Below, piece by piece: positions 2,962-32,338 of a DNA stretch of 32,770 bases. Positions within the stretch are counted from its first letter, which is position 1; every line of letters starts with the position of its first letter. Source of the DNA: an uncultured bacterium (GTDB lineage Bacteria > Cyanobacteriota > Vampirovibrionia > Gastranaerophilales > Gastranaerophilaceae); NCBI GenBank assembly GCA_949293185.1, contig CASFCQ010000018.1:1-32770 (forward strand). Reading direction: 5' to 3'. The position numbers and the translations under genes were made by a program. The notes beneath the pieces were generated by a model. It saw only the letters and a program-made list of their open reading frames with translations, made no database searches and had not been told where the DNA came from.

Positions 2962-3089
2962 GAAACCATTATTCTTACACAGTTCTAGACTAGCATATTT
3001 TTTAAGAATACACAAACGATTTTTGTATAAAAACTGCACCTTTGAAATGAGCTTATTAATTTACAAATTTTGCTGTAAAATACCAAAAG

Positions 3090-3154: not shown

Positions 3155-3157
3155 AAA

Positions 3158-3232
3158 ATGCAATTTAGCGTAACTGAAAAAGCGCTACTGCTTATCTTAT
3201 TGATAATAATAGCGCTCGCTTTTGCAAAATAG
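3158..3232 (+). CDS. Probable 24-residue hydrophobic membrane peptide
   Basis: ATG at 3158 follows the strong ribosome site AAAGGTGG with about seven bases of spacing. The ORF encodes 24 residues: a short polar start (MQFSVTEK), a run of Leu, Ile and Ala long enough to cross a membrane (about 9-22), and a final Lys. A 14-bp hairpin begins ten bases after the stop. It sits on the plus strand between two minus-strand genes, so it is not a leader peptide of either. I do not recognise a family. Single-helix peptides with this layout include type I toxins and small regulators of membrane complexes, but nothing here decides between them. The ORF is too short to prove coding by itself; the ribosome site and downstream hairpin are the support. 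Confidence 0.5.
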   Translation: MQFSVTEKALLLILLIIIALAFAK

Positions 3233-3241
3233 GGAGTTAAG

Positions 3242-3278
3242 AAGAGCTTTAAGAGAGTGAAGCCTCTTAAGGCTCTTT
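3242..3278 (+). terminator. Hairpin after the small ORF and downstream of the OppD-type gene
   Basis: A 14-bp stem pairs 3242-3255 with 3264-3277 (one G-U pair) around an 8-base loop. The T-run after it is poor on either strand. It lies ten bases past the small ORF stop and about 60 bases past the stop of the minus-strand ATPase gene, so it may serve either transcript. Confidence 0.5.
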
Positions 3279-3336
3279 CCCTATAAATTTATTATAAATC
3301 GTTTTTGTTTTTTTTCAAGATTCATGCTAAAACACC

Positions 3337-5141: not shown

Positions 5142-5171
5142 AAGTGTTTCCCCGTTTTAGTGTACTGTCGC

Positions 5172-5180
5172 ATTATAGCA
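5172..5180 (-). promoter_or_regulatory. dapF extended -10 promoter element
   Basis: The minus strand reads TGCTATAAT here, a consensus -10 with the TG extension, which compensates for the lack of a clear -35. The expected start near 5165 gives a leader of about 24 nt. The element lies just downstream of an orphan terminator, so dapF appears insulated from upstream transcription. Confidence 0.6.
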
Positions 5181-5186
5181 TATTTC

Positions 5187-5221
5187 AACAAAATAAAAAG
5201 CCTTTGACGGTTATCAAAGGC
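5187..5221 (-). terminator. Orphan Rho-independent terminator on the minus strand
   Basis: The minus strand reads GCCTTTGA, a 6-base loop, TCAAAGGC (5221-5200), then TTTTTATTTT. This is a textbook terminator, but no recognised minus-strand gene lies upstream of it before gltX at 5784. It implies an unannotated minus-strand transcript within 5222-5783. Confidence 0.8.
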
Positions 5222-7241: not shown

Positions 7242-7897
7242 TGAAGATTCATTTACAAAACAACAACAGCGATAATTTGATTTTATTCTTTTGCGGATGG
7301 GGAATGGATGAAAATCCTTTCTCCGTCTTAAAAAGCAACTGTGATGTTTTGTATGTTTATGACTACACAACACCTGATTTTCCGGAGTTTGATTTTTCAA
7401 AATATAAAAGCATAAAACTTTTATCATTTTCATACGGAGTTTACGCAGGTGCAATAGCCAAACTCCCCGATAATCTGAAATTGGATGAAAGAGTTGCACT
7501 CAACGGAACGCTTATCCCTGTTGACGACAAATACGGCGTGCCGGTCAGACAGTTTGAACTTACGGAAAAAATGGACTCTCAAACCGTTGTCAAATTCCGA
7601 CAGAGACTTTTTGGCGGAGAAAAAGCACAGGAACATTTTGATATTTTTGAAAATCATCTTCCCAAAAGGAGTGCTCAAAGCTGCACAGAAGAGTTGCTCG
7701 GGATGAAAAAATATGTGCCTCAAATTCCAACACCTCAAAAAACTTTTGACAAAATTTATGTTGCAAAACACGACCGCTGTGTACCGACACGCAATCAGCT
7801 TAATTTCTGGCAAAAAGCAGGCATTAATAATATAATATGGCTTGAAACAGGTCATTTCCCGTTTTATAACTACGAAAAACTCGAAGATTTATTATGA
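7241..7897 (+). CDS. bioG: Pimeloyl-[ACP] methyl ester esterase, BioG type
   Basis: It removes the methyl group from pimeloyl-ACP methyl ester once chain elongation is complete, releasing pimeloyl-ACP for biotin ring assembly; BioG is one of the non-homologous replacements for E. coli BioH. The 218 aa have the family opening LILFFCGWGMDENPF (13-27), a nucleophile-elbow-like SFSYG with Ser64, Asp178 in KHDRC and His205 in GHFPF, a plausible alpha/beta-hydrolase triad. The start overlaps the gltX stop and the end overlaps bioC by four bases (ATGA). The neighbouring bioC provides the methyl group that this enzyme removes, which supports the call. Confidence 0.88.
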   Translation: MKIHLQNNNSDNLILFFCGWGMDENPFSVLKSNCDVLYVYDYTTPDFPEFDFSKYKSIKLLSFSYGVYAGAIAKLPDNLKLDERVALNGTLIPVDDKYGVPVRQFELTEKMDSQTVVKFRQRLFGGEKAQEHFDIFENHLPKRSAQSCTEELLGMKKYVPQIPTPQKTFDKIYVAKHDRCVPTRNQLNFWQKAGINNIIWLETGHFPFYNYEKLEDLL

Positions 7898-8640
7898 TTA
7901 ACAAAAATCTTGTAAAATTCAGATTTCAAAAAAGTATACATACTTATGACGACTCTGCCGTAATACAAAAAGAGATGGCGCATTCTCTTATTGATAAAAT
8001 TTTAACTAATTGCGGAAATTCTTTTGATAAAATATTTGAATTTGGTGCAGGCACTGGGTTTTTGTCAAAGAATATTTTGAACAAAATTACGTTTAAAGAG
8101 TATTATGCAAATGATATTATAGAAGAATCCGAGTTTTGCATAAAAAATATTATAAACAACGTAAATTTTGTTGCCGGTGATATAGAAAAAATTGACCTGA
8201 ATAACAGTTTTGATTTAGTTGTTGCAAATGCCGTTATGCAGTGGATAACAGATATTGATGAGCTCTTGTGTAAAATCCGTAATAATATAACGGAGGATGG
8301 ATATTTTGCGTTTACAACATTCGGTGAACAAAATTATAAAGAAATAAAAGAAACAACCGGAGTAGGACTAAACTATTTAAAATCAGAAACTTTAAAAGAA
8401 AAGTGCGAACGCGATTTTGAAATTCTTTGCTTTGAAGAAAATATGCAGACCCTGTATTTTAATACCCCTTTAGATGTATTAAAACATATAAAATATTCCG
8501 GTACAAACGCTCTTAAGTCTTTACACTGGAGCGTTACAAAGCTAAAAGAATTTGATAACTATTACAGAGAAAATTTCGGAATAAACAACAAAGTAACATT
8601 GACATACAATCCTGTTTATATGATTTTAAAAGCTAAGTAA
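7894..8640 (+). CDS. bioC: Malonyl-[ACP] O-methyltransferase
   Basis: It uses S-adenosylmethionine to methylate the free carboxyl of malonyl-ACP so that fatty-acid synthase will elongate it, the first dedicated step of the BioC-BioH/BioG biotin route. In 248 aa one sees the BioC N-terminal pattern FQKSIHTYD, the SAM-binding FEFGAGTGFLS (about 48-58), the ANAVMQWI motif, TTFGEQNYKEI, and the C-terminal HIKYSGTNAL that separates BioC from general methyltransferases. It overlaps bioG by ATGA. The later genes (bioF, bioA, bioD, bioB) are not in the window. Confidence 0.92.
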   Translation: MINKNLVKFRFQKSIHTYDDSAVIQKEMAHSLIDKILTNCGNSFDKIFEFGAGTGFLSKNILNKITFKEYYANDIIEESEFCIKNIINNVNFVAGDIEKIDLNNSFDLVVANAVMQWITDIDELLCKIRNNITEDGYFAFTTFGEQNYKEIKETTGVGLNYLKSETLKEKCERDFEILCFEENMQTLYFNTPLDVLKHIKYSGTNALKSLHWSVTKLKEFDNYYRENFGINNKVTLTYNPVYMILKAK

Positions 8641-17097: not shown

Positions 17098-18762
<1,665 letters not shown>

Positions 18763-18815
18763 TTATGTTTAAAACGGTTTCACTCTGCGGGTTTCAGTTT
18801 TCAGAACCCCTTCGA

Positions 18816-18924
18816 GTTTCACACACCTTATTCTTTTTCCGCCTGTGCAATCAAAGATGCTGCGTTCGATAAATTCCATTTATCTCACAACGGCGGTTGG
18901 GAACGGTTTCACACACCTTATTCT
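18816..18924 (-). repeat. Structured repeat, copy B, with 19-bp direct repeats
   Basis: Read on the minus strand, the 58-nt core (18896-18839) starts CCGCCGTTGTGA and ends ACAGGCGG as in copy A. Its two hairpins are GATAAAT-GGA-ATTTATC (18884-18868) and a GCATC/GATTGC stem with the same TTT loop (18860-18847). An identical 19-bp sequence flanks it at 18906-18924, which contains the groES stop, and at 18816-18834. It lies inside the groES-groEL mRNA. Confidence 0.75.
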
Positions 18925-19205
18925 AATACGCCTAGGACGTCTTTTACTGACATGATTTTGAAGATATCTTCGCCCATTTTTACGTCAGTACCTGCGTATT
19001 TAGCGAACAAAACTTTTTCGCCTACTTTAACTTCCATTTCTTCTTTTTTGCCGTCATCAAGAGTTTTACCCGGACCTACTGCAACAACTTCACCTTTTTG
19101 AGGTTTTTCTTTTGCGGAATCAGGAATAAAAATACCGCCTGAAGTTTGTTCTGTATCTTCGATAACTTTGATAACGATTTTGTCGCCTAACGGTCTTATT
19201 GACAT
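18918..19205 (-). CDS. groES: Co-chaperonin GroES (10 kDa)
   Basis: It forms the heptameric lid of the GroEL chamber. The 95 aa match the family from the opening MSIRPLGDKIVIKV, through the mobile loop EDTEQTSGGIFIPDSAKEKPQKG (16-38), to the C-terminal KVLFAKYAGTDVK. A perfect AAGGAGG ribosome site precedes ATG by five bases. I searched 19206-19310 for the CIRCE operator (TTAGCACTC/GAGTGCTAA) and found none, so HrcA control is not supported here. A candidate -10 TATAAT is present without a good -35. The last gene of the glycosyltransferase array lies 105 bases upstream on the same strand. Confidence 0.98.
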   Translation of the reverse strand: MSIRPLGDKIVIKVIEDTEQTSGGIFIPDSAKEKPQKGEVVAVGPGKTLDDGKKEEMEVKVGEKVLFAKYAGTDVKMGEDIFKIMSVKDVLGVLE

Positions 19206-19310: not shown

Positions 19311-20834
19311 TTATTTGATATCTCCGAGATATTCATATATTCTGAACCCCTCCAATTTAACTATAGCCGGATGGCTTTCATAAAGAAGTTTGTAGTTTTT
19401 AAGTTCTGACACTTTTAATATATCTGCGTCGAAAAACGGCACAAGTGCATATATCTTTTTATTTTTAAAATATTCTTTATTCTCAATAACATATTTTGCA
19501 TATTTATCCCATCCGTCTTTATCCAGAATATAAAAAATCTTTTTATCCCATACAACATATTTAATATTGTATTCGTGCTGGGCAGAATATATTTCATTTG
19601 CACCTTTAAGGTAATAAACTACCCCCATAGCGTACGGATCATTGTCGGTAATAATAACAGAATTATTTTTATCTATATTTTTTACAATCCATTGAGCAGT
19701 TTCTTTTGCTCCGGAATAATCATATTTGATATCCATTACAGAATATTTTAATCCGTTTAAACATGTAAAAAGAAAAAACAGTGCAATAACAATATTAACT
19801 ATATTTTTAAATTTTTTTGAAATATTTTCCTGCTGCAAAATCAACCATAGAGAAAATATTAAAATTATGTGCGCACAAAAGATTCTTGTCACAAAAATCC
19901 AATGACTATAGTAGTAAATGTATATTACTATCTGGAATAATATACTTAAAAAAACAATTGTAAAAAACTTCTTACTTTTAATTAAAATCGCAGCCAAAAG
20001 ACCTATATACAAAAATACCGAAAGTATTATCAACGGCATATTTACTAAAGGAAACATTATTTGTTTGTTTTCGGGCCACTGATTATCTACTGCATTTATA
20101 AAAAACTGGCTTAATACCTTGATTGTATTTATTACAAAATTATCCGTATAATCAATTCTTATAACAACATTACTGGATGTAGTTCCATGCAGCTGTAATA
20201 CTACGGCAATCAACCCGATACACATTATCCCGAAGGCTGCTGCATATTTTTTTAAATCATTTTTACTAAGTTCTCTTCTTGCTTTAATTAAATATTTATA
20301 CAAAAAATCCAATGCCAGCAATCCGCAAAAAGCAAACATTATTACATGTGTATTGGCGAGCATAAACAACAGAGCCGCATACCAATACGGGTGCTTGTTT
20401 GATTTAGGGTACAAAAGCACAAGAGCGAAAACAAGCAGAGGAATTATGGAATAACTTCTCGCAATTACCGGAAAAAAGTACAAAAATCCCGAACTCGTTA
20501 CTATTGCAAATTTAGCAAATTTGTTAAACGGCGAATATTGCAAAAACAAAAATACGCTCGCTACCATACATATCCAGCAAAATATCTGCATAAACATTAT
20601 AGATATATTCATTTTTGCAAAAGGCATCATTAAGATATAGAAAAATGACGGATGTCCTTCATTCACCAGATGTTTAAAAAGGCTGAAATCAAATATTGAA
20701 AGATGTTTTGCAAGCTGCCAGACCTGAGCCTCATCCGCCCATGTTTCATGATGCAGTACAAGTATCAACGTAAACACCGCATATAATAAAGTACATATAA
20801 TGTTCGTTACGAGTTTTTTTGTGTTTGTTTCCAT
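19311..20834 (-). CDS. GT-C type membrane glycosyltransferase, paralog 1 (last in array)
   Basis: A 507-aa inner-membrane protein with about a dozen hydrophobic segments and a soluble C-terminal domain from about residue 385. Motifs shared by all seven paralogs: HHETWADEA (28-36) right after the first membrane segment, NEGHPSFFY (58-66), ARSYS (125-129) and NTHV (161-164). An acidic pair (here DE) in the first outside loop is the usual catalytic or metal-binding site of GT-C enzymes, which take sugars from polyprenyl-phosphate donors. The C-terminal part opens YDYSGAKETAQWI. Only this copy has HHET rather than HHEI/V. The sugar and acceptor are unknown. It starts two bases after the preceding gene's stop. 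Confidence 0.8.
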   Translation of the reverse strand: METNTKKLVTNIICTLLYAVFTLILVLHHETWADEAQVWQLAKHLSIFDFSLFKHLVNEGHPSFFYILMMPFAKMNISIMFMQIFCWICMVASVFLFLQYSPFNKFAKFAIVTSSGFLYFFPVIARSYSIIPLLVFALVLLYPKSNKHPYWYAALLFMLANTHVIMFAFCGLLALDFLYKYLIKARRELSKNDLKKYAAAFGIMCIGLIAVVLQLHGTTSSNVVIRIDYTDNFVINTIKVLSQFFINAVDNQWPENKQIMFPLVNMPLIILSVFLYIGLLAAILIKSKKFFTIVFLSILFQIVIYIYYYSHWIFVTRIFCAHIILIFSLWLILQQENISKKFKNIVNIVIALFFLFTCLNGLKYSVMDIKYDYSGAKETAQWIVKNIDKNNSVIITDNDPYAMGVVYYLKGANEIYSAQHEYNIKYVVWDKKIFYILDKDGWDKYAKYVIENKEYFKNKKIYALVPFFDADILKVSELKNYKLLYESHPAIVKLEGFRIYEYLGDIK

Positions 20835-20836
20835 AA

Positions 20837-22327
20837 TTAAATTTCATTCCCTATATATTTATAAATTTTAAAAGTTTCTCCGCCTTGAATCGATGGTTTT
20901 GATGTAAAAATTAATTTATATTTTTCTCTCATAAACTCATCATAATGATAAAAATATAACAAAGAAGAAGACAAAATATAAGCATGCCTGCATCCTTGTT
21001 TAAGCATTTCTTCTTCCAATAATTGAGAAATCACAAATGGAGAATAAAATCCGGTAATTTTCCACTCTATAAACTTCAATCTCTTGTTATAATATATACT
21101 GTAAAAATTATAATCCGGCAGGTAAACAATTAACCCCGCGCTGAATGCATCCACATCCGGTACAATCAACGCATCCTTCTCAATATTTTTTTTGATAAAT
21201 TCAGCTGTTTCAGCAGCCGAAGAATAATTGTATTTTATATCTTTATAAATTGACCTGATTCCGCAGAATGTTGTCATTATAAACAACAATATCATTGATG
21301 CAGCAGCAGCTTTATTCAATTTTTTCGACACATTTGTATCAATAAGACTTATCCAAAAACAGAAAATTAAAATTAAAAATGCACAGAACAATCTCGTCTG
21401 ATAAATTATTCCATAGCTAAAAATATAAATGAAAAACTGAAACCCGACAGATAACAAACAAATACAAAAATTCTTTTTGTTTATTAAGAATAAAATAATA
21501 AAAGATATTATAAAAAACAAAAACTCACAAGCCGCCGCAATAATTTCCGCCGGCTTAAATGACTGCAAGCTTTGCCAGTACTGCGTCTGTGAATAAACAT
21601 TAATCGAATTAAAGAAAAAACGAACAATAACGTTTTTAGTGTTATCAATTATGTTTTTTGTGTCGAACACAAGAGACTTGTTGGATTCTATTGAACCGGA
21701 TAATTGAAAAATCACTGCAGCCAGTCCGGCAATAAGTATTGCATAAGACACAGCATGAATTTTATCTGTATTTTTTTCTCTGATATTGTCATACAAAAAT
21801 ATTGCAGCAAGCAAAAAAGCAAACCCGTACATTATGACATGTGTATTAGCAACAAAAATAAGCAGCAAAACATACAACAGCGGGTATTGTTTTTGCTTTG
21901 GATAGAGTATTGCCAGCATAATAATCATCACCGGCAATATCGAATAACTTCTTGCTATAACAGGGAAAAAGTACAAAAAACCGGCGCTCATTATTATCGA
22001 TAATTTTGTAAGCTTATTAAACGGAGAATACTGCAAAAGTAAAAATACGCTTGCAGCCATACTAAACCAGCACAATAACTGCATTACCAAAACAGGCAAA
22101 CCGATTTTTGCAAAAGGCATCATTAATATATAAAAGAATGACGGATGCCCTTCATTCACCAGATGTTTGAATAAACTGAAATTAAATATTGAAAGATTCT
22201 TTGCTATAAGCCAGACATTTGCCTCATCTGCCCAAATTTCGTGGTGCAGCATAATTATTAAAGTAAAAATTGCGTATAATATTGTGCAAATGAGATTTAT
22301 TATCAGTTCTTTTTTATTTTTTTCCAT
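20837..22327 (-). CDS. GT-C type membrane glycosyltransferase, paralog 2
   Basis: A 496-aa multi-pass protein belonging, with paralogs 1, 3 and 4, to the FKHLVNEGHPSFFY subgroup. It has HHEIWADEANVW, ARSYSILP and NTHVIMYGF, and a C-terminal domain beginning YNYSSAAETAEFI. I start at ATG 22327 (MEKNKKELIINL), which aligns with the other paralogs and follows GAAGAGAA. An upstream ATG at 22372 would add 15 residues and overlap the DUF2142 gene. The residue after DEA is Asn where the others have Gln. Confidence 0.8.
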   Translation of the reverse strand: MEKNKKELIINLICTILYAIFTLIIMLHHEIWADEANVWLIAKNLSIFNFSLFKHLVNEGHPSFFYILMMPFAKIGLPVLVMQLLCWFSMAASVFLLLQYSPFNKLTKLSIIMSAGFLYFFPVIARSYSILPVMIIMLAILYPKQKQYPLLYVLLLIFVANTHVIMYGFAFLLAAIFLYDNIREKNTDKIHAVSYAILIAGLAAVIFQLSGSIESNKSLVFDTKNIIDNTKNVIVRFFFNSINVYSQTQYWQSLQSFKPAEIIAAACEFLFFIISFIILFLINKKNFCICLLSVGFQFFIYIFSYGIIYQTRLFCAFLILIFCFWISLIDTNVSKKLNKAAAASMILLFIMTTFCGIRSIYKDIKYNYSSAAETAEFIKKNIEKDALIVPDVDAFSAGLIVYLPDYNFYSIYYNKRLKFIEWKITGFYSPFVISQLLEEEMLKQGCRHAYILSSSLLYFYHYDEFMREKYKLIFTSKPSIQGGETFKIYKYIGNEI

Positions 22328-22352
22328 AATTTTCTCTTCAATCTTATAAAAT

Positions 22353-23714
22353 CTAGTAATATCTGAGTACAATCGTCAAAAGATTTTGAAACAGCAAAAT
22401 CTGTGATATCAAAAATAATCCTATCGGTATAACTTTGCTTTGCAGGTTAATTTTTTTTGTACTTAACAATAACAAAATCAAAGGAATAAAAGGTGTTAAA
22501 TATCTTCCCTGTATGCCTACAATATACGGTTTTGTCTGATATATAAGATAAACCGATGTCATTATCAAAAAGTAAGACAAAATAACTGCAGACAAAATAA
22601 GTAATTTATTTCTAAAATTGATATTACAAATCTTTTCTTTTGTCGTTGTATACAACATAGAACAAACAAGCCCGCACCACGCCAGATGCGCGTATTTTAA
22701 AGGTATCATGGCAAGAGTCACTCCGATACTTGAAATAACATTTTGATAAAGAAACTTTTTAAGAAATATCGAAGAAGCAAAAACTGTTTTCATATAAGCA
22801 AACGGAGAGGTAATAATTTCATTAATCAACAAAAATTTGTTTTTTAAACTATGCATCTGCTCATAGGTTAAATGTCCGGTCTGAGTAAAAATCGTTGAAA
22901 AAAACACTGATATCAGCAGCATATTTAGTGAAAAAATTGATATAAAATTTGCAAAATAACTTTTTGATGATTCAAATTTTTTGGAGGGAATTAAAAAATA
23001 TAAAAGAATTAACGGCAAATATGCAAACTTTAACATCCCGATAACCGTTATTATAGCACCCCATATAACAAGTTGTTTTTTACAAATACTATCGGGGCTA
23101 TAAGCCAGCATAAAAGTATAAGAAAGAAACAGCAATATAACACCCACAACCAGACTGTCTGTACTTATAGAAGCTGCTTGATATATATTTATCGGCAGCA
23201 ATGCAAAAAACAAAAACATCCATTTATGACAGGGAGTATTTTTTATTGCAAAATATGCAAGTGCCAGATAAACAAGTAACGAACAAAATCTTAAAATATA
23301 CATCATGCAAAGCGGTTTTACATTAAGAAACTTCATTACCCGCAAAACAAGAAAAGACGGAAAATAGGATAAAGGAGTGTAACTTGTCGGAGTATGTTTT
23401 AAAAAAGTTGTTGTTTCTTTAGCCAGAGGCATATTAAAAGATTGCACAGTTGCTTTATAAGGAATTTTTTCATTAGAAAATCTGTAAACATTATAAAACC
23501 TGTATAAAGAAGCCAGGCTGTATGGCAGCTCAAGTCCAGCCCAACCGTCTTTTACTTGATATCTGTATGTTCCCTGTGTATATCCCCACATTTTAAAAAG
23601 GTGTTCCGGTTCATCCGGGGCTTGAAACGGCGGATTTACGCATACAAATATCATTCCCCACAACAGACATAATATTAAAAATATATTTTCCGATTTAAAT
23701 ATTGCTTTTTTCAT
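22353..23714 (-). CDS. DUF2142 family membrane protein, possible glycosyltransferase
   Basis: A 453-aa multi-pass membrane protein, not a close relative of its neighbours. The opening PPFQAPDEPEHLFKMW (28-43) and the late loop VGIQGRYLTPFIPL are hallmarks of DUF2142. The acidic DEPEH following the first membrane segment is placed like the DEA motif of the adjacent paralogs, so a GT-C-like fold is plausible. Members often lie in polysaccharide and O-antigen loci. It sits between paralogs 2 and 3, about 20-25 bases from each, in the same transcript, and may use a different sugar or act in a different step. Confidence 0.82.
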   Translation of the reverse strand: MKKAIFKSENIFLILCLLWGMIFVCVNPPFQAPDEPEHLFKMWGYTQGTYRYQVKDGWAGLELPYSLASLYRFYNVYRFSNEKIPYKATVQSFNMPLAKETTTFLKHTPTSYTPLSYFPSFLVLRVMKFLNVKPLCMMYILRFCSLLVYLALAYFAIKNTPCHKWMFLFFALLPINIYQAASISTDSLVVGVILLFLSYTFMLAYSPDSICKKQLVIWGAIITVIGMLKFAYLPLILLYFLIPSKKFESSKSYFANFISIFSLNMLLISVFFSTIFTQTGHLTYEQMHSLKNKFLLINEIITSPFAYMKTVFASSIFLKKFLYQNVISSIGVTLAMIPLKYAHLAWCGLVCSMLYTTTKEKICNINFRNKLLILSAVILSYFLIMTSVYLIYQTKPYIVGIQGRYLTPFIPLILLLLSTKKINLQSKVIPIGLFLISQILLFQNLLTIVLRYY

Positions 23715-23735
23715 CTTTTATTTTACATTTCTATT

Positions 23736-25235
23736 CTATTTTAAAATTTTATATTCGTACAGTTTAAAAGCTTCACCTATTGCAAAACACGGCGGCGATA
23801 CATACAAAAGCCTGTATCGCTGCGGAAGAAGTAATTCAAAGTTATTTGTATTCATAAAATTTGATGCAAGAATATAAATTTTTTTATCTTCCAAATTATA
23901 TTTTCGGATATCACTGTCTAACATTTTAGTAAAAACAATATGTGCTGTTGCTTTATCCAGAAACTTTTCCTTATCCCAAATCATATATTTGATTTCATCA
24001 TGTTTATAAACGGAATAGAATTTGTAATCGGGAAGATAATAATATACCCCCAGTCCAAAAGCATCAGCGGAAGGAATAATTACGGAATCTTTGCTTATAT
24101 TATGTTTGATAAATTCAGCAGTATCTTTTGCGGAAGAATAGTTGTATTTAAAATCTTTTTCTATAAAAGCAGCACCGTTATATAATGTAAACAAGAAAAA
24201 TACGGATAAAATTATGCCGGCAAACTTTTTATGAACAACTTTGTTCTCTCTAAACGCAATCCAGTATCCGAATATTAAAATTAAAAAAGCCGAAAAAATT
24301 CTGGTCGGATAAATTAATGTAGAATATGCCAATACGTATATTCCCATCTGAAAAAGAATACTCAAAAAACAAAAAATCCCTGTCTTTTTATCGGAAAGAA
24401 AAAGTTCAATACACAAAATAATGAATAAAACAGCAAATAAAAACGAACAAACTGCATAAAAAACTATATGCGGGGGCGTAAACAGATTGTTAATCATAAA
24501 TGTATAAATATAACTCACCGCACCGCCGAAAAACTGCGAAACTACCACAAATAAAGTATCAAAAATATTTTTAACCTCTAATACAGCATCGCATTTTTCA
24601 CTGCCATAAAGTTGCAAAACTAACGCAACAAGCCCCATGATAATTATAAGTGCAGATACAATGTATTTTTTAGAAAAATTCTTTATATTTTGAAAATTTT
24701 CGCATATAAAATCAACCCCGAACAAAAATACAAACCCGAACATTATTACATGGGTATTTGCACACAAAGCTAACAGCACAGCATAAACCAAAGGATGTTT
24801 GGCTCTTTCTTTATAAATTAATGCAAGCAGAAAAATCAACAGCGGCAGTATTGAATAACTTCTGGCAATCACTGGGAAAAAATACAAAAAACCTCCGCTT
24901 GTTATTATAGATAATTTTGTAAACTTATTAAAAGGAGAATACTGCAGCAGCAAAAAGACACTTATTACGCTGCTCAGCCAGCACAACACCTGCATTACAA
25001 ATATTGACAAATTCATTTTTGCAAAAGGCATAATAAGCAAGTAAAAAAACGAAGGATGCCCGTCATCTACAAGATGTTTAAATAAACTAAAGTCAAACAC
25101 CGAAAGATTTTTTGCAACAAGCCACGCCTGCGCTTCGTCAGCCCAGATTTCATGATGCAAAACCATAATCAAAGTTAATATTGCATAAACAAAAGTCCAT
25201 ATTAAATTTATTATTATACTCTTTTTATTTGACAT
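23736..25235 (-). CDS. GT-C type membrane glycosyltransferase, paralog 3
   Basis: A 499-aa multi-pass protein with HHEIWADEAQAW, DDGHPSFFY (Asp instead of Glu before GHP), ARSYSILPLL and NTHVIMFGF. Its C-terminal domain begins YNYSSAKDTAEFI and includes a GVYYYLPDYKFYS stretch shared with paralogs 2 and 4. The start is uncertain: GAGGAG is only three bases before TTG 25247 and 15 before ATG 25235; I prefer the ATG because it aligns with the paralogs. A 64-bp segment (24934-24997) is almost identical to paralog 4, far above the rest of the pair. Confidence 0.8.
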   Translation of the reverse strand: MSNKKSIIINLIWTFVYAILTLIMVLHHEIWADEAQAWLVAKNLSVFDFSLFKHLVDDGHPSFFYLLIMPFAKMNLSIFVMQVLCWLSSVISVFLLLQYSPFNKFTKLSIITSGGFLYFFPVIARSYSILPLLIFLLALIYKERAKHPLVYAVLLALCANTHVIMFGFVFLFGVDFICENFQNIKNFSKKYIVSALIIIMGLVALVLQLYGSEKCDAVLEVKNIFDTLFVVVSQFFGGAVSYIYTFMINNLFTPPHIVFYAVCSFLFAVLFIILCIELFLSDKKTGIFCFLSILFQMGIYVLAYSTLIYPTRIFSAFLILIFGYWIAFRENKVVHKKFAGIILSVFFLFTLYNGAAFIEKDFKYNYSSAKDTAEFIKHNISKDSVIIPSADAFGLGVYYYLPDYKFYSVYKHDEIKYMIWDKEKFLDKATAHIVFTKMLDSDIRKYNLEDKKIYILASNFMNTNNFELLLPQRYRLLYVSPPCFAIGEAFKLYEYKILK

Positions 25236-25247
25236 ATATTTACTCAA

Positions 25248-26738
25248 CTACTCCTCAAACCTGTAAATTTTAAAGCTTTCACCAAGCGAAAGTGCTTTTG
25301 ATGACGAAAAAATCTGTTTATATTTATCAGGTAACTTTTGTTCAAAATGATGAAGATTCATAAAATCAGAAGATATAATATAAACATTTTTTAATTTATA
25401 TTTTTGAATATTATATTCTAAAATCTTTGTAAAATAATAATCTTCGTATACATCATTGTCTTCCTTTATCCATTTCATATACTTGATATAGTCGTGTCTT
25501 CTCACAGACCAGAATTTTCTGTCCGGCAGATAATAATAAATACCCAGTGCACAGCCGTCTTCTGTCGGTATCAAAACAGAATTTTGAGGGATATTTTCTT
25601 TAATAAACAAAGCCGTTTCCCCTGCGGAAGAATAATTTAACTTTATGTCTTTTAATACATAATTAAAACCGTTAAAACATGTCATAAAGAAAAATATTGC
25701 GAGCATTACATTAATACAACCCCGTAAAAAAATCTTAGGAACATCTTTATCGTCCTGCTGCAACACAATCCAGTAACAAAAAACCGTTATTATAAAAGCA
25801 CAAAATATACGCGACGGGTACATTAATGCGCTGTATGCAAAAATATAAATAAAAAATTGAAATAACACGCCAATCAAATTAAGAGCAAAAATCTTTTTAT
25901 TATAAAACCACAAGCCGCAGCATAAAATCAGATACAAACACAAAAATACCAGAACATACAAACCATATAACACCGGCGCAAAAGCTATTTTGTTAATACA
26001 AAAGAGTATAGAGTTATTAAAATCAACTGCATTGACAAAAAATTGCAAAGGAACAATTATTAAAGAATGCCCGATATTCTGCAGTGAAAAATTTATCATG
26101 CTGTTTGCGCCGTCTGTCCCCCACAGCTGCATAACTACAGCAGCAAGCCCTAAAACAACTATCAAAAAACTTAGAATATGTTTTTTAATATTTCTAAAAT
26201 TTTCAATAATAAAAAACATACCTAAAACTGCCGCAAACCCGAACATTATCACATGTGTGTTTGCGCATAACACAAGCAGCAACGCATAAACAAAAGGATG
26301 CTTATCCCTGTCTTTATACATCATAGCGAGCAAAAAAACAAGAAGCGGCAGTATAGAATAACTCCTCGCTATTACGGGAAAAAAATACAAAAAGCCCGCA
26401 CTTATTATTATTCCAAATTTTGTTATTTTGTTAAACGGAGAATACTGCAGCAGTAAAAAGACACTTATTACGCTGCTCAGCCAGCACAACACCTGCATTA
26501 TAAATATAGGCATATTCATTTTTGCAAAAGGCATAATAAGCAGGTAAAAAAATGACGGATGTCCTTCGTTAACAAGATGTTTGAACAAACTAAAATCAAA
26601 CACGCTCAAATTTCTTGTTATCTGCCAGACCTGTGCCTCATCAGCCCAGATTTCATGATGCAGAACAACAACAAATATTATTATTGCATATACAATTGTC
26701 AGGATTAAATTTAGTATTATATTCTTTTTATTTTCCAT
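25248..26738 (-). CDS. GT-C type membrane glycosyltransferase, paralog 4
   Basis: A 496-aa multi-pass protein with HHEIWADEAQVW, NEGHPSFFY, ARSYSILPLL and NTHVIMFGF; the C-terminal domain starts LNYSSAGETALFI and contains GIYYYLPDRKF. ATG 26738 (MENKKNIILN) aligns with the other copies and overlaps the end of paralog 5 by 11 bases; the alternative TTG at 26753 adds five residues. It is closest to paralog 3, its downstream neighbour, consistent with a local tandem duplication. Confidence 0.8.
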   Translation of the reverse strand: MENKKNIILNLILTIVYAIIIFVVVLHHEIWADEAQVWQITRNLSVFDFSLFKHLVNEGHPSFFYLLIMPFAKMNMPIFIMQVLCWLSSVISVFLLLQYSPFNKITKFGIIISAGFLYFFPVIARSYSILPLLVFLLAMMYKDRDKHPFVYALLLVLCANTHVIMFGFAAVLGMFFIIENFRNIKKHILSFLIVVLGLAAVVMQLWGTDGANSMINFSLQNIGHSLIIVPLQFFVNAVDFNNSILFCINKIAFAPVLYGLYVLVFLCLYLILCCGLWFYNKKIFALNLIGVLFQFFIYIFAYSALMYPSRIFCAFIITVFCYWIVLQQDDKDVPKIFLRGCINVMLAIFFFMTCFNGFNYVLKDIKLNYSSAGETALFIKENIPQNSVLIPTEDGCALGIYYYLPDRKFWSVRRHDYIKYMKWIKEDNDVYEDYYFTKILEYNIQKYKLKNVYIISSDFMNLHHFEQKLPDKYKQIFSSSKALSLGESFKIYRFEE

Positions 26739-28155
26739 TATTTTTTCTTTCAAATTTATAAATCCTAAAAATCTCGCTGTGCATTACTGTTTTCAAGTCC
26801 GATTCATACAGCGGTTTTATATTTTCATAAGAGAGATAAACAGCAGTAAGCACATAAACATCAGACACCTGTTTTAATATTTCGTCAACCGGTATCGGAT
26901 AATACGGACTCAAGACAGGTTTTTTCCAATCGTAATATGTAAAATAGCCGTTGTACGGAATATAAAAAATCTTTTGTCCGTTCTTTGGCAAATAAGACAG
27001 TATTGATGATGTAGAAATAGGAGAATTAGTCACTATGACCGCATTTTTATCAAGATTTTTTTGGATATACTGCGCAACATTTTTACTGTCAGAAAACGGA
27101 TGCTGTATATCGTTTTTTATGATTTCAAAAGCGTTTGGGAAAGTAAGCAAAAATGCGCTTGACAGCACAATATTAATAATTATTCTGTCAGTTTTATTCC
27201 GGCTGCCGTATAAAACAAACAGACAAAACAACGGCACAAACAAAAGCAAAAATGTTCTCTGCTGCATCATTCCCCAGATAAAAATAAACACCGATAAAAT
27301 ATACGCAAAATTAAACGCAAAAATAAAAAACAAACTTTTATTTTTTATAAAAAGATAAACCGTATTAAAAACAAAAAATGCCCCCAAAAACAAAGCATAA
27401 AACCAATTTTCAGCGCCGTATATATTTTTAACAATGTCAAAATACAAGCCTTTTAGCAAAACCGCATTATTTTTTATATCATAACCTTGTACAATAAAAT
27501 TCTCATTCTGACTGCCGTTCAAATACAAAACAACGGCTGTCAGAGAAAACAACATTAATAAAAACGGACAAATAAATTTTTTTTGCAGACTTCTGTCTTT
27601 TTCAAAAAAAATATTTTTAAAAAAGAAAACCCCCGCCAGCGCGGCACAAAACCCGAACGCTATAACATGCGTATGCGCCAAAAGAGCAACACAAATTGCA
27701 TACAAATACGGTCTGTCTTTTTGTTTTTCATACAACACCATACTCAATACAAAAAGTAAAATCATAAGCCCGTAACTTCTTGCCACAACAGGATACCAGT
27801 ACAAAAAAGCGGAACTTAAAATTATACAAAGATTAGTTATTTTATGAAAAGGGGATTTAAAAATAAAAACACCCGCAGCCATAATCATAAAAAACCAGTT
27901 TAGTATCTGCATTAAAAACACACTGAATTTTAATTTTGCAAAAGGGAATAAAAACATATACCACAACAGCGGATGCCCTTCCGTCCTGACATGCCGGATT
28001 ATCCCCATGATATCTAAATCCCGAACCACAAGCCAGGCCTGGGCTTCATCTGCCCAAATTTCGTGATGAAAAACAACAAAAAGTGTAATCACTGCATATA
28101 AAAATATACACAAAATATTCAGTACTAAAGATTTATTGATTTTTGTTTTTATCAT
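26728..28155 (-). CDS. GT-C type membrane glycosyltransferase, paralog 5
   Basis: A 475-aa multi-pass protein that links the two subgroups: it keeps HHEIWADEAQAW like paralogs 1-4 but has LVVRDL and TEGHPLLWY like paralogs 6-7. ARSYGL replaces ARSYS and AHTHV replaces NTHV. The C-terminal domain opens HPFSDSKNVAQYI, lacking the YxYS tyrosine pattern of the others, which may reflect different acceptor recognition. ATG at 28155 follows AGGA and overlaps the end of paralog 6 by 23 bases. Confidence 0.8.
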   Translation of the reverse strand: MIKTKINKSLVLNILCIFLYAVITLFVVFHHEIWADEAQAWLVVRDLDIMGIIRHVRTEGHPLLWYMFLFPFAKLKFSVFLMQILNWFFMIMAAGVFIFKSPFHKITNLCIILSSAFLYWYPVVARSYGLMILLFVLSMVLYEKQKDRPYLYAICVALLAHTHVIAFGFCAALAGVFFFKNIFFEKDRSLQKKFICPFLLMLFSLTAVVLYLNGSQNENFIVQGYDIKNNAVLLKGLYFDIVKNIYGAENWFYALFLGAFFVFNTVYLFIKNKSLFFIFAFNFAYILSVFIFIWGMMQQRTFLLLFVPLFCLFVLYGSRNKTDRIIINIVLSSAFLLTFPNAFEIIKNDIQHPFSDSKNVAQYIQKNLDKNAVIVTNSPISTSSILSYLPKNGQKIFYIPYNGYFTYYDWKKPVLSPYYPIPVDEILKQVSDVYVLTAVYLSYENIKPLYESDLKTVMHSEIFRIYKFERKNNGK

Positions 28156-29566
28156 TTTTCCTGATTCCGTTTAAATTATCCAAAATATAAAATCTTTCCG
28201 TCATCAAAAGAGTTGCGGGTTTTGATTTATACAGCACTTCTTCTTCTGGTACGGCAAGCGAACTGAAAAGATAATATATTTTTTTATTTTTGAATTTTTG
28301 CATATTTTTTTCCTGAATTTCAGGAGGCACAAACTCATCAGCTCTGGTATCGTAACCGTATGTATAAAAACCATCGGTCTGCGGATAATAAAATTTATAA
28401 CCCTTTGCATAAGCCGCAATACTGCTTGTAAAAATAGGTCTGTTAGTCACGATAATATCGTTGTTATCTATATTATTTTTTATAAATTCCGCTGTTGCTT
28501 TACTGCCGGAATAATCGTATTTTAAATCATTTTTTATTAACTGTATTCCAAGCGGTATGCTCAAACCAAAAAACAAAATAAGAACCAGATTATATACAAT
28601 TTTTTTTGCTAAATTCAACTCATTCTGTAAAAATACTACCCAAAAACAAAACAACAACACGGTCAAGCCCGCCCACACTTTTTCCGGTGCAGACATCCAG
28701 ATATAGTTATATATAACAAACTGGTAGGCAATATTTACCAAAAACGCCGCAAACAAACGTTTATTCTCAACAAAAATAATAACACCCGACCCAATCAGCA
28801 ATAAAGAAAGAAGTATCCCCCTGATATTACCCATTACACCAAAAAGATTAATCATATATGTTATAAATGTTTTTGTCCAAAAACCGTCCGCGAGCATAAT
28901 ATACTCAGATACACTCTCGTTTTTATGAGGGCAGGTAAAAATATACAAACTTAAAAACAATACCGGCAAAAATGTTATTAAAAAAGGAGCTATGTATTTT
29001 TTCAAATTATCCTTATTTTTAAATATATTGTCATAGAAAAACAACGCACCCATAACCGTACAAAAACTGCACATTAATACATGAGTCTGCGATAACAGCG
29101 CAAGAACTATTGCATAGTGATATGGCTTTTCCTTTTGCTGCGGATAAAAAATTGCCAGCAAAAAAATTAATAAAGGTATTAAAGAATAACTCCTTGAAAG
29201 CACCGGCAGCCAGTAAACAAAACCGGCACTAAAAAGTACACATACCTTGCTTAAAATATTAAAAGGTGATTTCCACAAAAATACTGCCGCAGCCGCTGTC
29301 ATAAACAACCAGCTCACTACCTGCATAGAAAGCACGGATAAACCGGTTTTTGCAAACGGAAAAACCATAAAATACCACAAAAGAGGATGCCCCTCTATCC
29401 TGACATGTTTAATAACTTCAATAATATTCAAATCTCTTACAACAAGCCAGACCTGTGCTTCATCACGCCACACTTCGTGGTGCAAAACAGTAAACAGCGT
29501 TACTGCCGCATATAAAATAATACAAATTATATTTAACAAATGAGTATAATATTTTTTATTTTCCAT
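28133..29566 (-). CDS. GT-C type membrane glycosyltransferase, paralog 6
   Basis: A 477-aa multi-pass protein with HHEVWRDEAQVW, where Arg replaces the Ala of paralogs 1-5 next to the acidic pair, then IEGHPLLWY, SRSYSLIP and QTHVLM. The C-terminal domain begins YDYSGSKATAEFI and ends in a short basic tail (KNDKNKNQ) encoded within the overlap with paralog 5. ATG at 29566 has only a distant AGGA upstream. Together with paralog 7 it forms the WRDE subgroup. Confidence 0.8.
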   Translation of the reverse strand: MENKKYYTHLLNIICIILYAAVTLFTVLHHEVWRDEAQVWLVVRDLNIIEVIKHVRIEGHPLLWYFMVFPFAKTGLSVLSMQVVSWLFMTAAAAVFLWKSPFNILSKVCVLFSAGFVYWLPVLSRSYSLIPLLIFLLAIFYPQQKEKPYHYAIVLALLSQTHVLMCSFCTVMGALFFYDNIFKNKDNLKKYIAPFLITFLPVLFLSLYIFTCPHKNESVSEYIMLADGFWTKTFITYMINLFGVMGNIRGILLSLLLIGSGVIIFVENKRLFAAFLVNIAYQFVIYNYIWMSAPEKVWAGLTVLLFCFWVVFLQNELNLAKKIVYNLVLILFFGLSIPLGIQLIKNDLKYDYSGSKATAEFIKNNIDNNDIIVTNRPIFTSSIAAYAKGYKFYYPQTDGFYTYGYDTRADEFVPPEIQEKNMQKFKNKKIYYLFSSLAVPEEEVLYKSKPATLLMTERFYILDNLNGIRKNDKNKNQ

Positions 29567-29589
29567 AATTAATTTTATTATCCTGCTGA

Positions 29590-30990
29590 TTATTCATCCT
29601 GTATTATAAAGAAAAATTCCGTCACTATAAGTGTATTTTTATCGGAAACAAAAATAATTTTTTTGTCAGTTTGCGGAAACCCCAGCGCACTGTAAAGATA
29701 ATAGATTTTTTTATCCTTTAACTTTTCCGGTTTGTTAAACGTAAACGGTTTGGACTCAATATATTTTTGAGCATAAGCATATGAATAATAATTGTCATAC
29801 AAAGGTGTATAAAATTTTCTTTCCGCAGGCAAATAAGCAATAGCCCCCGCACTGGTCAAATCATTTGTAGAAACCAGCACCGCATCTTTTTCAATATTAT
29901 TTTTTATAAACTCCGCAACTCTTTTACTGCCGGAATAATCATACAGGTAATCGTTTTTATACAGCATATAAGAAAGGTTAAAAGATAATCCGAATAATAA
30001 GATAACAAGTATGTTAATAAAAACTTTTTTCAATTTTGACAACCCGCTGTCTTGCAAAACAATCCAAAAACCAAAAAGCAAAACAATCAAAGACAAAACA
30101 GCTTTTTCGTTTGAAACCCCGCAGCCGCCGCAAATATATATTGCCAGCTGGTACAAAAATCCTGCAAATGTAATAAAAAATACTTTTTTATTCTCCCGAA
30201 AAACAACTGCCAAAGCGCACAAAATACTAACCGCAGCAATAAAAAGAACAAATTTATTGCTTAAATACATGTTTGTTAAAAACCAGTTGCACTGTTCCCA
30301 AATTTTTTCCGCACAAAAAAGATTCAAGGGCTGAACATTCACGCTGAGGTTTTTTAAAGGACTCGAAAAAACATAAACAACAATGGAAAGTAATGACAAC
30401 ACCGCCACGGCAAAAGATATTAAACAATCTTTTTTATTACCATTGTTTTTTATAATGTTTTCGTATCCGAAAACAGTCGCAGCTGCAGTACAAAAACCAA
30501 ACATTAATACATGCGTGTTAGCTAGCAAAATATTCAAAAAAGAATAAATATAAGGATGCTGCCTTTGTTTGTTATAAAAAACAGCCATCAAAAAAATAAA
30601 TAAAGGTATTATTGAATAATTTCTTGATAAAACAGTCAGAGAATACAAAAAACCGGCACTGAATAAAACACAAATTTTGCTCAATCTGCTAAACGGCGAA
30701 AACCATAAAAATACTCCTGCTGCTGCAGCCATAAAACAAAAACTTAAAAGCTGCATGGAAATAACAGGCAGCTTAAGTTTAGCCAAAGGCAACACCAGAA
30801 AATACCACAAAAGCGGATGTCCCTCGACTCTTACATGGTCAAAAATGCCAAATAAATTCAAATCTCTGACAACCAGCCATACCTGTCCCTCATCACGCCA
30901 TATTTCATGATGAAAAATCCCGATTAACCCTAATATAAGAAAAATAATAAATACGATTATATTAAATTTATTTTTTAAGATTGCCTTCAT
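29590..30990 (-). CDS. GT-C type membrane glycosyltransferase, paralog 7 (first in array)
   Basis: A 466-aa multi-pass protein and the promoter-proximal gene of the array. It has HHEIWRDEGQVW (Gly replaces Ala after the acidic pair), VEGHPLLWY, SRNYSI (Asn replaces Ser) and NTHVLMFGF, and a C-terminal domain from YDYSGSKRVAEFI. Its N-terminal segment is shorter than in the others. It is transcribed divergently from gtrA, with only 48 bases between the two start codons. Confidence 0.8.
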   Translation of the reverse strand: MKAILKNKFNIIVFIIFLILGLIGIFHHEIWRDEGQVWLVVRDLNLFGIFDHVRVEGHPLLWYFLVLPLAKLKLPVISMQLLSFCFMAAAAGVFLWFSPFSRLSKICVLFSAGFLYSLTVLSRNYSIIPLFIFLMAVFYNKQRQHPYIYSFLNILLANTHVLMFGFCTAAATVFGYENIIKNNGNKKDCLISFAVAVLSLLSIVVYVFSSPLKNLSVNVQPLNLFCAEKIWEQCNWFLTNMYLSNKFVLFIAAVSILCALAVVFRENKKVFFITFAGFLYQLAIYICGGCGVSNEKAVLSLIVLLFGFWIVLQDSGLSKLKKVFINILVILLFGLSFNLSYMLYKNDYLYDYSGSKRVAEFIKNNIEKDAVLVSTNDLTSAGAIAYLPAERKFYTPLYDNYYSYAYAQKYIESKPFTFNKPEKLKDKKIYYLYSALGFPQTDKKIIFVSDKNTLIVTEFFFIIQDE

Positions 30991-31020
30991 TTATTTAATA
31001 AAGTTTTTTCCATCTCTCTT

Positions 31021-31034
31021 TTATAATATTATAA
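31021..31034. promoter_or_regulatory. Palindromic -10 region shared by gtrA and the glycosyltransferase array
   Basis: TTATAATATTATAA is a perfect 14-bp palindrome that places TATAAT on the plus strand at 31022-31027 and on the minus strand at 31033-31028. The plus-strand start would fall about four bases before the gtrA ATG, and the minus-strand start about 30 bases before the paralog 7 ATG. Good -35 elements are not obvious on either side. Confidence 0.55.
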
Positions 31035-31038
31035 AATT

Positions 31039-31413
31039 ATGAAAACAAACTGGCTTTTTGTAAAATTTATACTTGTCGGAGTTTTGAATACAGCCTTTGG
31101 CTACTTTATTTTTGCACTGCTTTTGTTCTTGGGTTTGCATTATACGCTGGCTGTTATCCTATCGACCGTTGCAGGAGTGTTGTTTAACTTTAAAACAACA
31201 GGTATGCTTGTTTTTAAAAATAATAACAACAAACTTATATTTAAATTTGTTGCAGTTTATGCCATAACCTCTGCAGTTGGTATAATTATTTTACGCCTGG
31301 CAGAACTTGCTCACATAAATCTTTACATAGCAGGACTGTTTTCAACAGGCTTATGCGCAATAATATCATTTTTACTGAATAAGAATTGGGTGTTTAAATA
31401 TGAAAAAAATTAG
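31039..31413 (+). CDS. GtrA-like membrane protein
   Basis: A 124-aa protein with four hydrophobic segments. FVKFILVGVLNTAFGYFIFALLL at the start and FLLNKNWVFK at the end are the classic GtrA family pattern. In serotype-converting gtr clusters GtrA is thought to flip undecaprenyl-phosphate-linked glucose across the inner membrane; other relatives act in arabinan or teichoic-acid pathways. Its stop overlaps the following transferase by 14 bases, so the two proteins are probably made together. No ribosome site is present, and a -10 lies immediately upstream. Confidence 0.9.
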   Translation: MKTNWLFVKFILVGVLNTAFGYFIFALLLFLGLHYTLAVILSTVAGVLFNFKTTGMLVFKNNNNKLIFKFVAVYAITSAVGIIILRLAELAHINLYIAGLFSTGLCAIISFLLNKNWVFKYEKN

Positions 31414-32338
31414 CCTTGTTTCAAGCTGTTACAACGAAGAAGAAAACATAGACACTCTCTATGAAAGAGTAACAAAAGCCATTGAACCCTTTTGCAGCAA
31501 ATACGAGTTTGAATACATCCTGCTGGATAACGGCTCAACCGACAACACAGCACAAAAACTGAAAGACCTCGCTCAAAAAGACAACAGAATAAAAGTTATA
31601 TTAAATACCCGCAATTTCGGTCATATACGCTCCCCGTATTACGGAATGATACAGGCTGACGGAGATGCTGTTATTTACCTTGCCTCAGACCTGCAAGACC
31701 CGCCCGAACTCATAAAAGACTTTATAGAAAAATGGGAACAGGGCTACATGATAGTACTGGGCAAAAAAACAAAGAGCGAAGAATCAATACTGATGTTTTT
31801 AATCCGCAGCGCATATTATGAACTCATCTCAAGAATTGCCGACGACGACTCCGGACTTGTAAAAAACTGTACGGGCTTTGGCTTGTACGACCATAAAGTT
31901 ATAGAAATAATAAAAAGCTTGGACGACCCGTACCCTTATTTAAGAGGACTCATCTGTGATATAGGTTATGAAAAAGCATTTGTGGAATTTACCCAGCCGA
32001 CAAGAAAAAGAGGAATCACAAAAAACAACTTCTACACACTTTATGACAATGCAATGATTGGTATAGTAAAACACTCTAAAGTCCCGCTAAGGATTATGAC
32101 ATTTTTAGGCTTTGGTTTTTCATTCCTCAGCCTTTTGATTGCATTTTTATACTTTATTCTAAAACTCATTTTCTGGGAAGAATTTACCCTGGGTATGGCA
32201 CCGATTATTATCAGTATTTTCTTCTTTGCATCTGTACAACTATTTTGTCTCGGGGTTCTCGGAGAATATATCGGCGCAATTTATACCAGAGTAAATAAAA
32301 AACCCGTTGTCGTGGAAAAAGAAAGAATAAACTTTTGA
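31400..32338 (+). CDS. GtrB-type family 2 glycosyltransferase (undecaprenyl-phosphate sugar synthase)
   Basis: It probably transfers a sugar from a nucleotide donor to undecaprenyl phosphate on the cytoplasmic face. The 312 aa open with a GT2 fold (ISLVSSCYNEEENI, 4-17; DNGSTDNT, 43-50). The metal/donor motif SDLQDPPE has its Asp at 97 and 100, and two C-terminal membrane helices (about 228-260 and 268-296) enclose the family's LGVLGEYIGAIYTRV stretch. DNGSTD replaces the common DDGSTD. Its partner is gtrA, with a 14-base overlap, and the divergent GT-C array is the likely consumer of the lipid-linked sugar. The sugar cannot be read from the sequence. Confidence 0.9.
   Translation: MKKISLVSSCYNEEENIDTLYERVTKAIEPFCSKYEFEYILLDNGSTDNTAQKLKDLAQKDNRIKVILNTRNFGHIRSPYYGMIQADGDAVIYLASDLQDPPELIKDFIEKWEQGYMIVLGKKTKSEESILMFLIRSAYYELISRIADDDSGLVKNCTGFGLYDHKVIEIIKSLDDPYPYLRGLICDIGYEKAFVEFTQPTRKRGITKNNFYTLYDNAMIGIVKHSKVPLRIMTFLGFGFSFLSLLIAFLYFILKLIFWEEFTLGMAPIIISIFFFASVQLFCLGVLGEYIGAIYTRVNKKPVVVEKERINF

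Follow-up and report, generated by a model that had tools for sequence, protein, structure and literature searches.

A tandem array of predicted GT-C glycosyltransferases facing gtrA-gtrB in a gut Gastranaerophilales genome

Proteins of the GT-C (glycosyltransferase fold C) family face the periplasm and take sugars from polyprenyl phosphate. Described gtr clusters carry one transferase (PMC3688519), and in Listeria, Lactococcus, and S. mutans one donor synthase or flippase serves two or three GT-Cs (PMC8035078, PMC11754754). Several mycobacterial GT-Cs, namely EmbA-C and AftA-D, act on one polyprenyl-phosphate sugar in arabinan synthesis (PMC12041299). For polysaccharide loci of lactococci, DUF2142 proteins have been considered as polymerases or transferases of a GT-C-like kind (PMC12599335), and GT-C enzymes combine a conserved module of transmembrane helices (TM) 1-7 with variable C-terminal TMs (PMC12653191). 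Here, we analyzed a window of 32,770 nucleotides, i.e., the whole stretch of DNA under study, from a Gastranaerophilales (Melainabacteria) metagenome-assembled genome (MAG; 2.2 Mb, 95 contigs) of an uncultured gut bacterium akin to cyanobacteria. The minus strand of this window is filled from 19311 to 30990 by seven mutually related membrane proteins (P1-P7, the HHE family, 30-57% identity) and one DUF2142 protein. This array faces gtrA and gtrB, which run on the plus strand, gtrB overlapping gtrA.

We consider it reasonably likely that the locus is an enlarged form of a multi-component transmembrane glycosylation system, whose several GT-Cs would draw on a polyprenyl-phosphate sugar to glycosylate different acceptors or positions of a surface glycan. 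GtrB would load polyprenyl phosphate with a sugar, and GtrA would bring this lipid-linked sugar across the cytoplasmic membrane to its outer face. Several array GT-Cs (seven HHE, one DUF2142) would then move sugars from polyprenyl phosphate to different glycan positions or acceptors. The probable role of the array is to build a surface sugar coat or to vary it. New in this locus are the tandem arrangement of as many as seven paralogs from an unnamed GT-C family, their mixture with DUF2142, and the way in which the array changes. The features of the locus are as follows (aa, amino acids; pLDDT, predicted local distance difference test).

19311-20834, minus strand: P1, 507 aa, predicted HHE-family GT-C, groES-proximal; ortholog in most congeners, often beside groES
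20837-22372, minus strand: P2, listed length 511 aa, with the ATG at 22327 as the likely start; in the congener G013, its 5' part groups with P1
22353-23714, minus strand: DUF2142 protein, 453 aa, GT-C fold by model (pLDDT 91.5); PF09913, E 1.4e-47
23736-25247, minus strand: P3, 503 aa; 5' part apparently exchanged with P4
25248-26753, minus strand: P4, listed length 501 aa, with the ATG at 26738 as the likely start; GT-C fold by model (pLDDT 94.2)
26728-28155, minus strand: P5, 475 aa, subfamily II (ORF, alignment, tree)
28133-29566, minus strand: P6, 477 aa, subfamily II (ORF, alignment, tree)
29590-30990, minus strand: P7, 466 aa, subfamily II; the gtrA-adjoining slot is held by a DUF2142 gene in several relatives
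30989-31015, minus strand: remnant ATGGAAAAAACTTTATTAAATAAATGA (MEKTLLNK*), compared with the DUF2142 starts of relatives
31021-31034, no strand: perfect palindrome TTATAATATTATAA in the divergent intergenic gap; found once in the window and in none of 100 shuffles
31039-31413, plus strand: gtrA, putative polyprenyl-phosphate-sugar flippase; PF04138, E 1.9e-16, single copy in the genome
31400-32338, plus strand: gtrB, GT2, putative polyprenyl-phosphate glycosyltransferase of the Sll0501/PgfS type; Sll0501, E 1.2e-55
17098-19205, minus strand: groEL-groES, on the strand of the array and downstream of it; conserved flank outside the system

An array of two GT-C families

The seven paralog open reading frames (ORFs) are stop-free and encode 466-511 aa, and they are ordered head to tail with the DUF2142 ORF (453 aa), at junctions that range from 26-base overlaps to 23-base gaps. 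Several listed ORF starts are too long (TTG starts), and the true overlaps are therefore smaller in several places. From this tight packing, the eight genes are likely to form one transcript. The array is AT-rich, with a GC content of 28-34% as compared with mostly about 40% in groESL and the other flanking genes. A whole-genome search found seven members of the HHE family in the own genome, every one inside the array.

The paralogs align over their full length, with E-values between them as low as 2e-165, far beyond chance. The ORFs and end-to-end alignments thus bear out a preliminary description of this DNA, which had reported seven related transferases and one membrane protein facing gtrA-gtrB. 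The HHExW(A/R)DE and GHP motifs, which it had also described as kept, are invariant in all seven. In an alignment of 75 family members, the HExWxDEA stretch directly after TM1 is near-invariant, and H33, E34, D38, E39, W43, and Y132 (P4 numbering) do not vary at all. Mean identity among the paralogs is 0.52 in the N-terminal part, 0.27 in the middle, and 0.32 in the C-terminal part. The earlier view that variation lies in a soluble C-terminal domain therefore holds for the divergence of the C-terminal part, but the middle part diverges too. The tree separates two subfamilies, P1-P4 and P5-P7.

None of the seven paralogs had a Pfam match at E 0.1 or a meaningful NCBIfam match, and a profile scan of the 75 relatives returned isolated weak matches to EpsG, PMT_2, or DUF6056 and nothing else. 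The sequence searches found no credible solved structure for the paralogs or for the DUF2142 protein. The family was found in 120 of the 383 genomes of the order; this order-wide survey scored four candidates per genome, and its per-genome counts are thus lower bounds with a maximum of four. Relatives also occur in Clostridia, Bacteroidetes, and Omnitrophota.

AlphaFold2 models were made for P4 and the DUF2142 protein, and structural matches were obtained with Foldseek and VIA-align. The top structural matches of the P4 model (mean pLDDT 94.2) were all GT-C enzymes: fungal Pmt4 (Z 16.0, 321 residues, root-mean-square deviation (rmsd) 5.0), AftB (Z 15.9, 402 residues, rmsd 5.5), ALG12 (Z 14.7, 392 residues, rmsd 5.2), ArnT (Z 14.6, 399 residues, rmsd 5.4), and OST (Z about 14 over 408-423 residues, C-terminal soluble domain included). 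The acidic pair D38/E39 of P4 comes right after helix 2-32, the first TM helix. The predicted structure thus agrees with the GT-C fold and acidic site anticipated in the preliminary description.

The DUF2142 protein matches PF09913 with 162.8 bits, against a curated cut-off of 30.1 (E 1.4e-47). Its model (pLDDT 91.5) had ALG12 as its best match (Z 17.4, 315 residues, rmsd 4.9), followed by Pmt4 (Z 14.6, 330 residues, rmsd 4.6) and ArnT (Z 14.0, 306 residues, rmsd 4.6), and every structural match listed for it is a GT-C-fold protein. An invariant D34/E35 stands in the same place as the acidic pair of the paralogs. This membrane protein had been described as unrelated to the transferases. By its model it is itself a GT-C, although it has no sequence similarity to the paralogs (profile-profile hhalign, probability 1.5%), and the link is by fold only. 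The array is thus predicted to hold eight GT-Cs of two families, P4 and the DUF2142 protein by model and the six other paralogs by homology to P4. Four more DUF2142 proteins lie in the own genome outside the array (contigs C1, C9, C82, and C85), making five in all.

The locus might serve the O-glycosylation of surface or secreted proteins, as done by PMT or the streptococcal Pgf system. Fungal Pmt4 was among the top structural matches (Z 16), and the NCBIfam model that GtrB matches best is PgfS, with a score far under its cut-off. The DE acidic pair of the paralogs resembles that of PMTs. We nevertheless hold this explanation to be quite unlikely, as PF13231, the PMT signature, was matched by no window paralog at E 0.1 and a glycoprotein substrate was not found in the neighborhood.

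Array content, gene conversion, and exchange within the genus

The locus was compared across a genus set of 23 genomes, made up of its own (G000) and 22 congeneric ones, in which contig ends limit the neighborhood counts. The paralog family was present in all 23, with one to seven copies per genome on one contig apart from one fragment. The survey of relatives called for in the preliminary description thus gave a high and variable copy number. DUF2142 genes number 0-4 per array and alternate with the paralog genes, and further DUF2142 genes occur elsewhere. The array usually sits between gtrB-gtrA and groES-groEL; it adjoins gtrB in 15 of the 23 genomes, gtrA in 11, and groES in 13. P2-P7 come and go, whereas P1, at the groES end, is kept most constantly. 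The closest GTDB relatives are Candidatus Gastranaerophilales MAGs, i.e., gut Melainabacteria (P1 91% identity in L039). In some genomes without gtrAB (L130, L136, and L138), the array was observed beside an isopropylmalate/homocitrate-synthase-like gene instead of groESL, and has therefore changed its genomic site.

In the tree, P1-P7 pair one by one with separate orthologs in G013, and on this topology the seven paralogs are apparently old lineages kept together. Recent tandem duplication as the origin of the seven copies was ruled out by these orthologs and by the older branches. Seven diverged copies under selection would also fit distinct linkages in an assembly line on the outer face, in which GT-Cs act in sequence to build one polysaccharide from lipid-linked monosaccharides, like Emb and Aft for mycobacterial arabinan. 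There, AftA-D and EmbA-C build one polymer from decaprenyl-phosphoryl-arabinose (PMC12041299), and AftB was one of the closest structural matches to P4 (Z 15.9, 402 residues). However, the copy number ranges freely from one to seven between close species, which is hard to reconcile with an ordered line unless the polymer changes too, and we regard this arrangement as rather improbable.

All eight array genes had ratios of nonsynonymous to synonymous substitution rates (dN/dS) of 0.05-0.17 against their G013 orthologs, as compared with 0.035 for gtrB and 0.026 for groEL; dS was near 1 in this comparison, and the values are rough. No stop codon was found in any family copy across the genus. Pseudogenes, which the preliminary description had named as an outcome that would speak against it, were ruled out by the stop-free copies and these dN/dS values.

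Signs of gene conversion were confined to the 5' part of the genes. In G013, P3 and P4 share 446 bases with one mismatch, counted from the start codon, after which identity drops to 50-66%, and P1 and P2 show 91% identity over about 510 bases. A 113-base 5' tract with 96% identity is common to members of both subfamilies in G008. Around the catalytic loop, the window copies of P3 and P4 are 86-89% alike, and each is less like its own ortholog there. DNA trees of the first part of the gene rejected an ortholog clade for P3 (p 1.5e-5) and P4 (p 0.008), with p 0.07 for P2, whereas in the rest of the gene the ortholog clades of P2, P3, and P4 were supported at 100/100. The converted stretch, approximately residues 1-150, comprises TM1 and the catalytic loop. 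As read from these alignments and trees, 5' gene conversion apparently overwrites the catalytic-loop part and leaves the 3' part distinct. These results suggest a common donor-binding and catalytic N-terminal part with distinct acceptor parts.

The 5' gene conversion between neighboring copies could also be taken to mean that the array is a mostly silent sequence store for recombination, with one or two copies expressed, as in antigenic variation. We find this highly improbable: every copy is full length, in the same orientation, tightly packed, and under strong purifying selection, and the conversion makes the 5' ends more alike while the variable part is not exchanged. Such a store would also be at odds with the lack of inverted repeats of at least 30 bases. 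Since a search found no such repeats, invertible or phase-variation elements were ruled out as well.

A sister relationship of G000 and G013 was rejected by groEL (p 2e-4) but recovered with 100/100 support by P1, which in turn rejected a grouping of G013 with G002 and G017. Either the array or groEL may thus have moved between species, and the array is favored as the mover because its gene content is discordant. No relative of the paralogs was found in viral contigs in one scan with one peptide pattern, which is still compatible with past phage transfer, and five array proteins gave no PHROGs match.

In the glycosylation locus that we propose, three processes would diversify the array: the gain and loss of genes, their exchange between species, and gene conversion limited to the 5' end. 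Conversion would keep the N-terminal part (the first TM helices and the catalytic loop, for catalysis and donor binding) alike, and the remainder of the protein, taken to hold acceptor specificity, would stay distinct. We tentatively raise the possibility of modular glycan diversification, in which a conversion-homogenized donor part, a divergent acceptor part, and gene content traded between gut species would bring one lipid-linked sugar to changing acceptors. The reservoir of specificities suggested in the preliminary description gains support at the evolutionary scale from gene turnover, N-terminal conversion, and exchange between species.

The donor side and the divergent gap

The gtrA product belongs to PF04138 (60.8 bits, curated cut-off 26.1) and is the sole GtrA of its genome. 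Residues 4-305 of GtrB are collinear with Synechocystis Sll0501 over the GT2 domain and the C-terminal TM region (E 1.2e-55), which makes Sll0501 the closest solved relative, while its best NCBIfam match, PgfS (NF047588), reached 195.9 bits, below the curated cut-off of 500. GtrB is the single full-length match in the own genome; the remaining matches cover only about the first 100-120 residues. From the linkage to gtrAB and the fold, the array GT-Cs would use a polyprenyl-phosphate sugar donor, and both the lipid donor and the periplasmic direction of transfer are those expected of the GT-C and Gtr families. We infer more cautiously that one donor is shared by the array GT-Cs, and the same caution applies to the identity of the acceptors. 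The own genome carries a gene of the O-antigen-ligase family (PF04932), and Melainabacteria have been inferred to possess lipopolysaccharide, O-antigen, and perhaps an S-layer (PMC3787301).

The genome also encodes a second candidate polyprenyl-phosphate-sugar synthase, a soluble GT2 of 230 aa (G000:C13:1510-2199; L140 1132-1824) that is most like AglJ and PpgS, with scores under both cut-offs. An ortholog with at least 81% identity occurs in 21 of the 23 genus genomes, and the remaining two (G008 and G009) carry a 47-48% homolog that shares its open frame with a GtrA domain. Such a joint frame was seen in G008, G009, and G010, and is apparently a natural fusion.

The gap between gtrA and the array carries traces of its history. 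In most relatives, 25-27 bases separate gtrA from a DUF2142 gene starting ATGGAAAAAACTTTATT or nearly so. In the window and in G013, the gap from gtrA to P7 is 48 bases and still contains a DUF2142-type start, which in the window reads ATGGAAAAAACTTTATTAAATAAATGA (30989-31015), with its stop overlapping the P7 start codon. L120, L124, L128, and others start their DUF2142 gene with the same codons. Because this start persists, a gtrA-proximal DUF2142 gene was probably deleted or replaced, its first codons being left behind. The same gap holds the palindrome TTATAATATTATAA, which has one match in the window and none in 100 shuffles, and whose core TATAATATTATA occurs in the same gap of seven congeners. 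The palindrome would put a TATAAT box in both directions and is a candidate symmetric -10 element of a shared divergent promoter with very short leaders. A sigma-70 site scan gave 84 sites against 72 in shuffles, which is about equal and was not used as evidence.

Several observations weigh against our proposal. Residues D94, D96, R122, D157, and R200 matter in Synechocystis GtrB (PMC4728340); in the window GtrB, D96 and R200 are conserved, whereas D94 is replaced by Ala, R122 by Lys, and D157 by Gly. Beside the array, no acceptor gene or sugar-nucleotide gene was recognized. For the N-terminal part, an approximately unbiased (AU) test at the protein level did not reach significance (p 0.14 and 0.30). 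The conversion tract of G013 was read from a metagenome assembly, and misassembly could account for part of it. Five of the 23 genomes lack both GtrA and GtrB and keep two or three paralogs (MAG completeness 80-94%). Finally, a DUF2142 gene belongs to the array in each of the 18 genomes that encode a full-length GtrB and in none of the five that do not.

The replaced residues of GtrB include the first DXD aspartate (D94) and the putative catalytic acid (D157) of the Synechocystis enzyme. A94 and G157 are kept across the genus, and a 45% identical Bacillota homolog is also without both aspartates; the changes therefore read as a subfamily trait and not as decay, which suggests a GtrB subfamily with different metal or acid chemistry.

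Because five genomes without the pair keep two or three paralogs, the paralogs cannot depend on GtrA-GtrB alone. Together with the conserved second candidate synthase, this weakens the earlier suggestion of one flippase/donor pair for all seven. The co-occurrence of GtrB and DUF2142 makes a serious rival of the idea that two systems share one locus, GtrA-GtrB serving the DUF2142 GT-C or GT-Cs only and the HHE paralogs using another polyprenyl-phosphate sugar, e.g., from the PpgS/AglJ-like synthase. HHE paralogs and the second synthase are distributed as this would require, the former in 23 of 23 genomes and the latter as an ortholog or homolog in 21 and two genomes, respectively. However, the groEL tree reduces the co-occurrence to no more than three independent changes, a number too small to test. 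In addition, HHE and DUF2142 genes are interleaved within one array, and a distant Bacillota locus joins an HHE gene to a gtrB homolog with no DUF2142 relative there. On balance, we think it somewhat unlikely that two separate systems are involved.

In that Bacillota locus (L103), the HHE gene (2236-3789) lies near the gtrB homolog (4281-5207, 45% identical to the window gtrB), and no relative of the window DUF2142 protein is found. Within 1739-5207 of the same locus, one short ORF precedes the HHE gene and another the gtrB homolog, and each looks type IV pilin-like (GFSLVELV-type N-terminus).

Taken together, the GT-C folds, the acidic pair after TM1, the GtrA and GtrB families, the tight divergent packing with a kept palindromic gap, and the dN/dS values make a multi-component glycosylation locus a fairly probable reading. 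The position of the array beside gtrB in 15 of 23 genomes, the Bacillota HHE/gtrB locus, the 5' conversion, and the exchange between species argue for it as well.

Elsewhere in the window, at 7241-8640, the genes for a BioG-family esterase and a methyltransferase overlap; the latter may be a BioC-type partner in biotin synthesis.

Significance and comparison with known systems

The locus brings to light a GT-C family that is absent from Pfam and NCBIfam and common in gut Gastranaerophilales, and places DUF2142 proteins beside the HHE family as predicted GT-Cs. Its natural recombinant GT-C sets, in which the N-terminal part is shared and the rest differs, give a direct route to asking which part sets the donor and which the acceptor. 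The locus is also a starting point for studying the surface of an uncultured gut lineage, whose chemistry is little known.

The gtrABC O-antigen glucosylation clusters of Shigella, Salmonella, and P22-like phages also have gtrA and gtrB beside GT-C-type genes, with GtrA and GtrB alike, variable transferases, and gene exchange (PMC3688519). Whereas the classical cluster has one gtrA, one gtrB, and one transferase in one operon, here eight GT-C genes stand divergently on the strand opposite to gtrAB. The array is also chromosomal and beside groESL, with no relative found in viral contigs by one peptide pattern. The Synechocystis GtrB (Sll0501) is the closest solved relative of the window GtrB, but its D94 and D157 are Ala and Gly in the latter.

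In the Firmicutes systems (CsbB/GtcA/YfhO; Listeria GttA; Lactococcus CsdAB/CD/EF and CflA; S. mutans SccN/SccM/SccP/SccQ), one synthase or flippase can likewise serve more than one GT-C. Unlike the present locus, they have two or three GT-Cs at most, no tandem paralog array, and Gram-positive acceptors. Mycobacterial arabinan synthesis resembles it in that several GT-C enzymes draw on one polyprenyl-phosphate sugar, but these enzymes belong to different families and have larger periplasmic domains. To our knowledge, no GtrB-type donor synthase lies beside a tandem array in that system. Lactococcal WpsI/WpsJ offer another PF09913 membrane protein in a surface polysaccharide locus (PMC12599335); they are single polymerization or transfer genes, whereas here one to four DUF2142 copies are interleaved with HHE GT-Cs.

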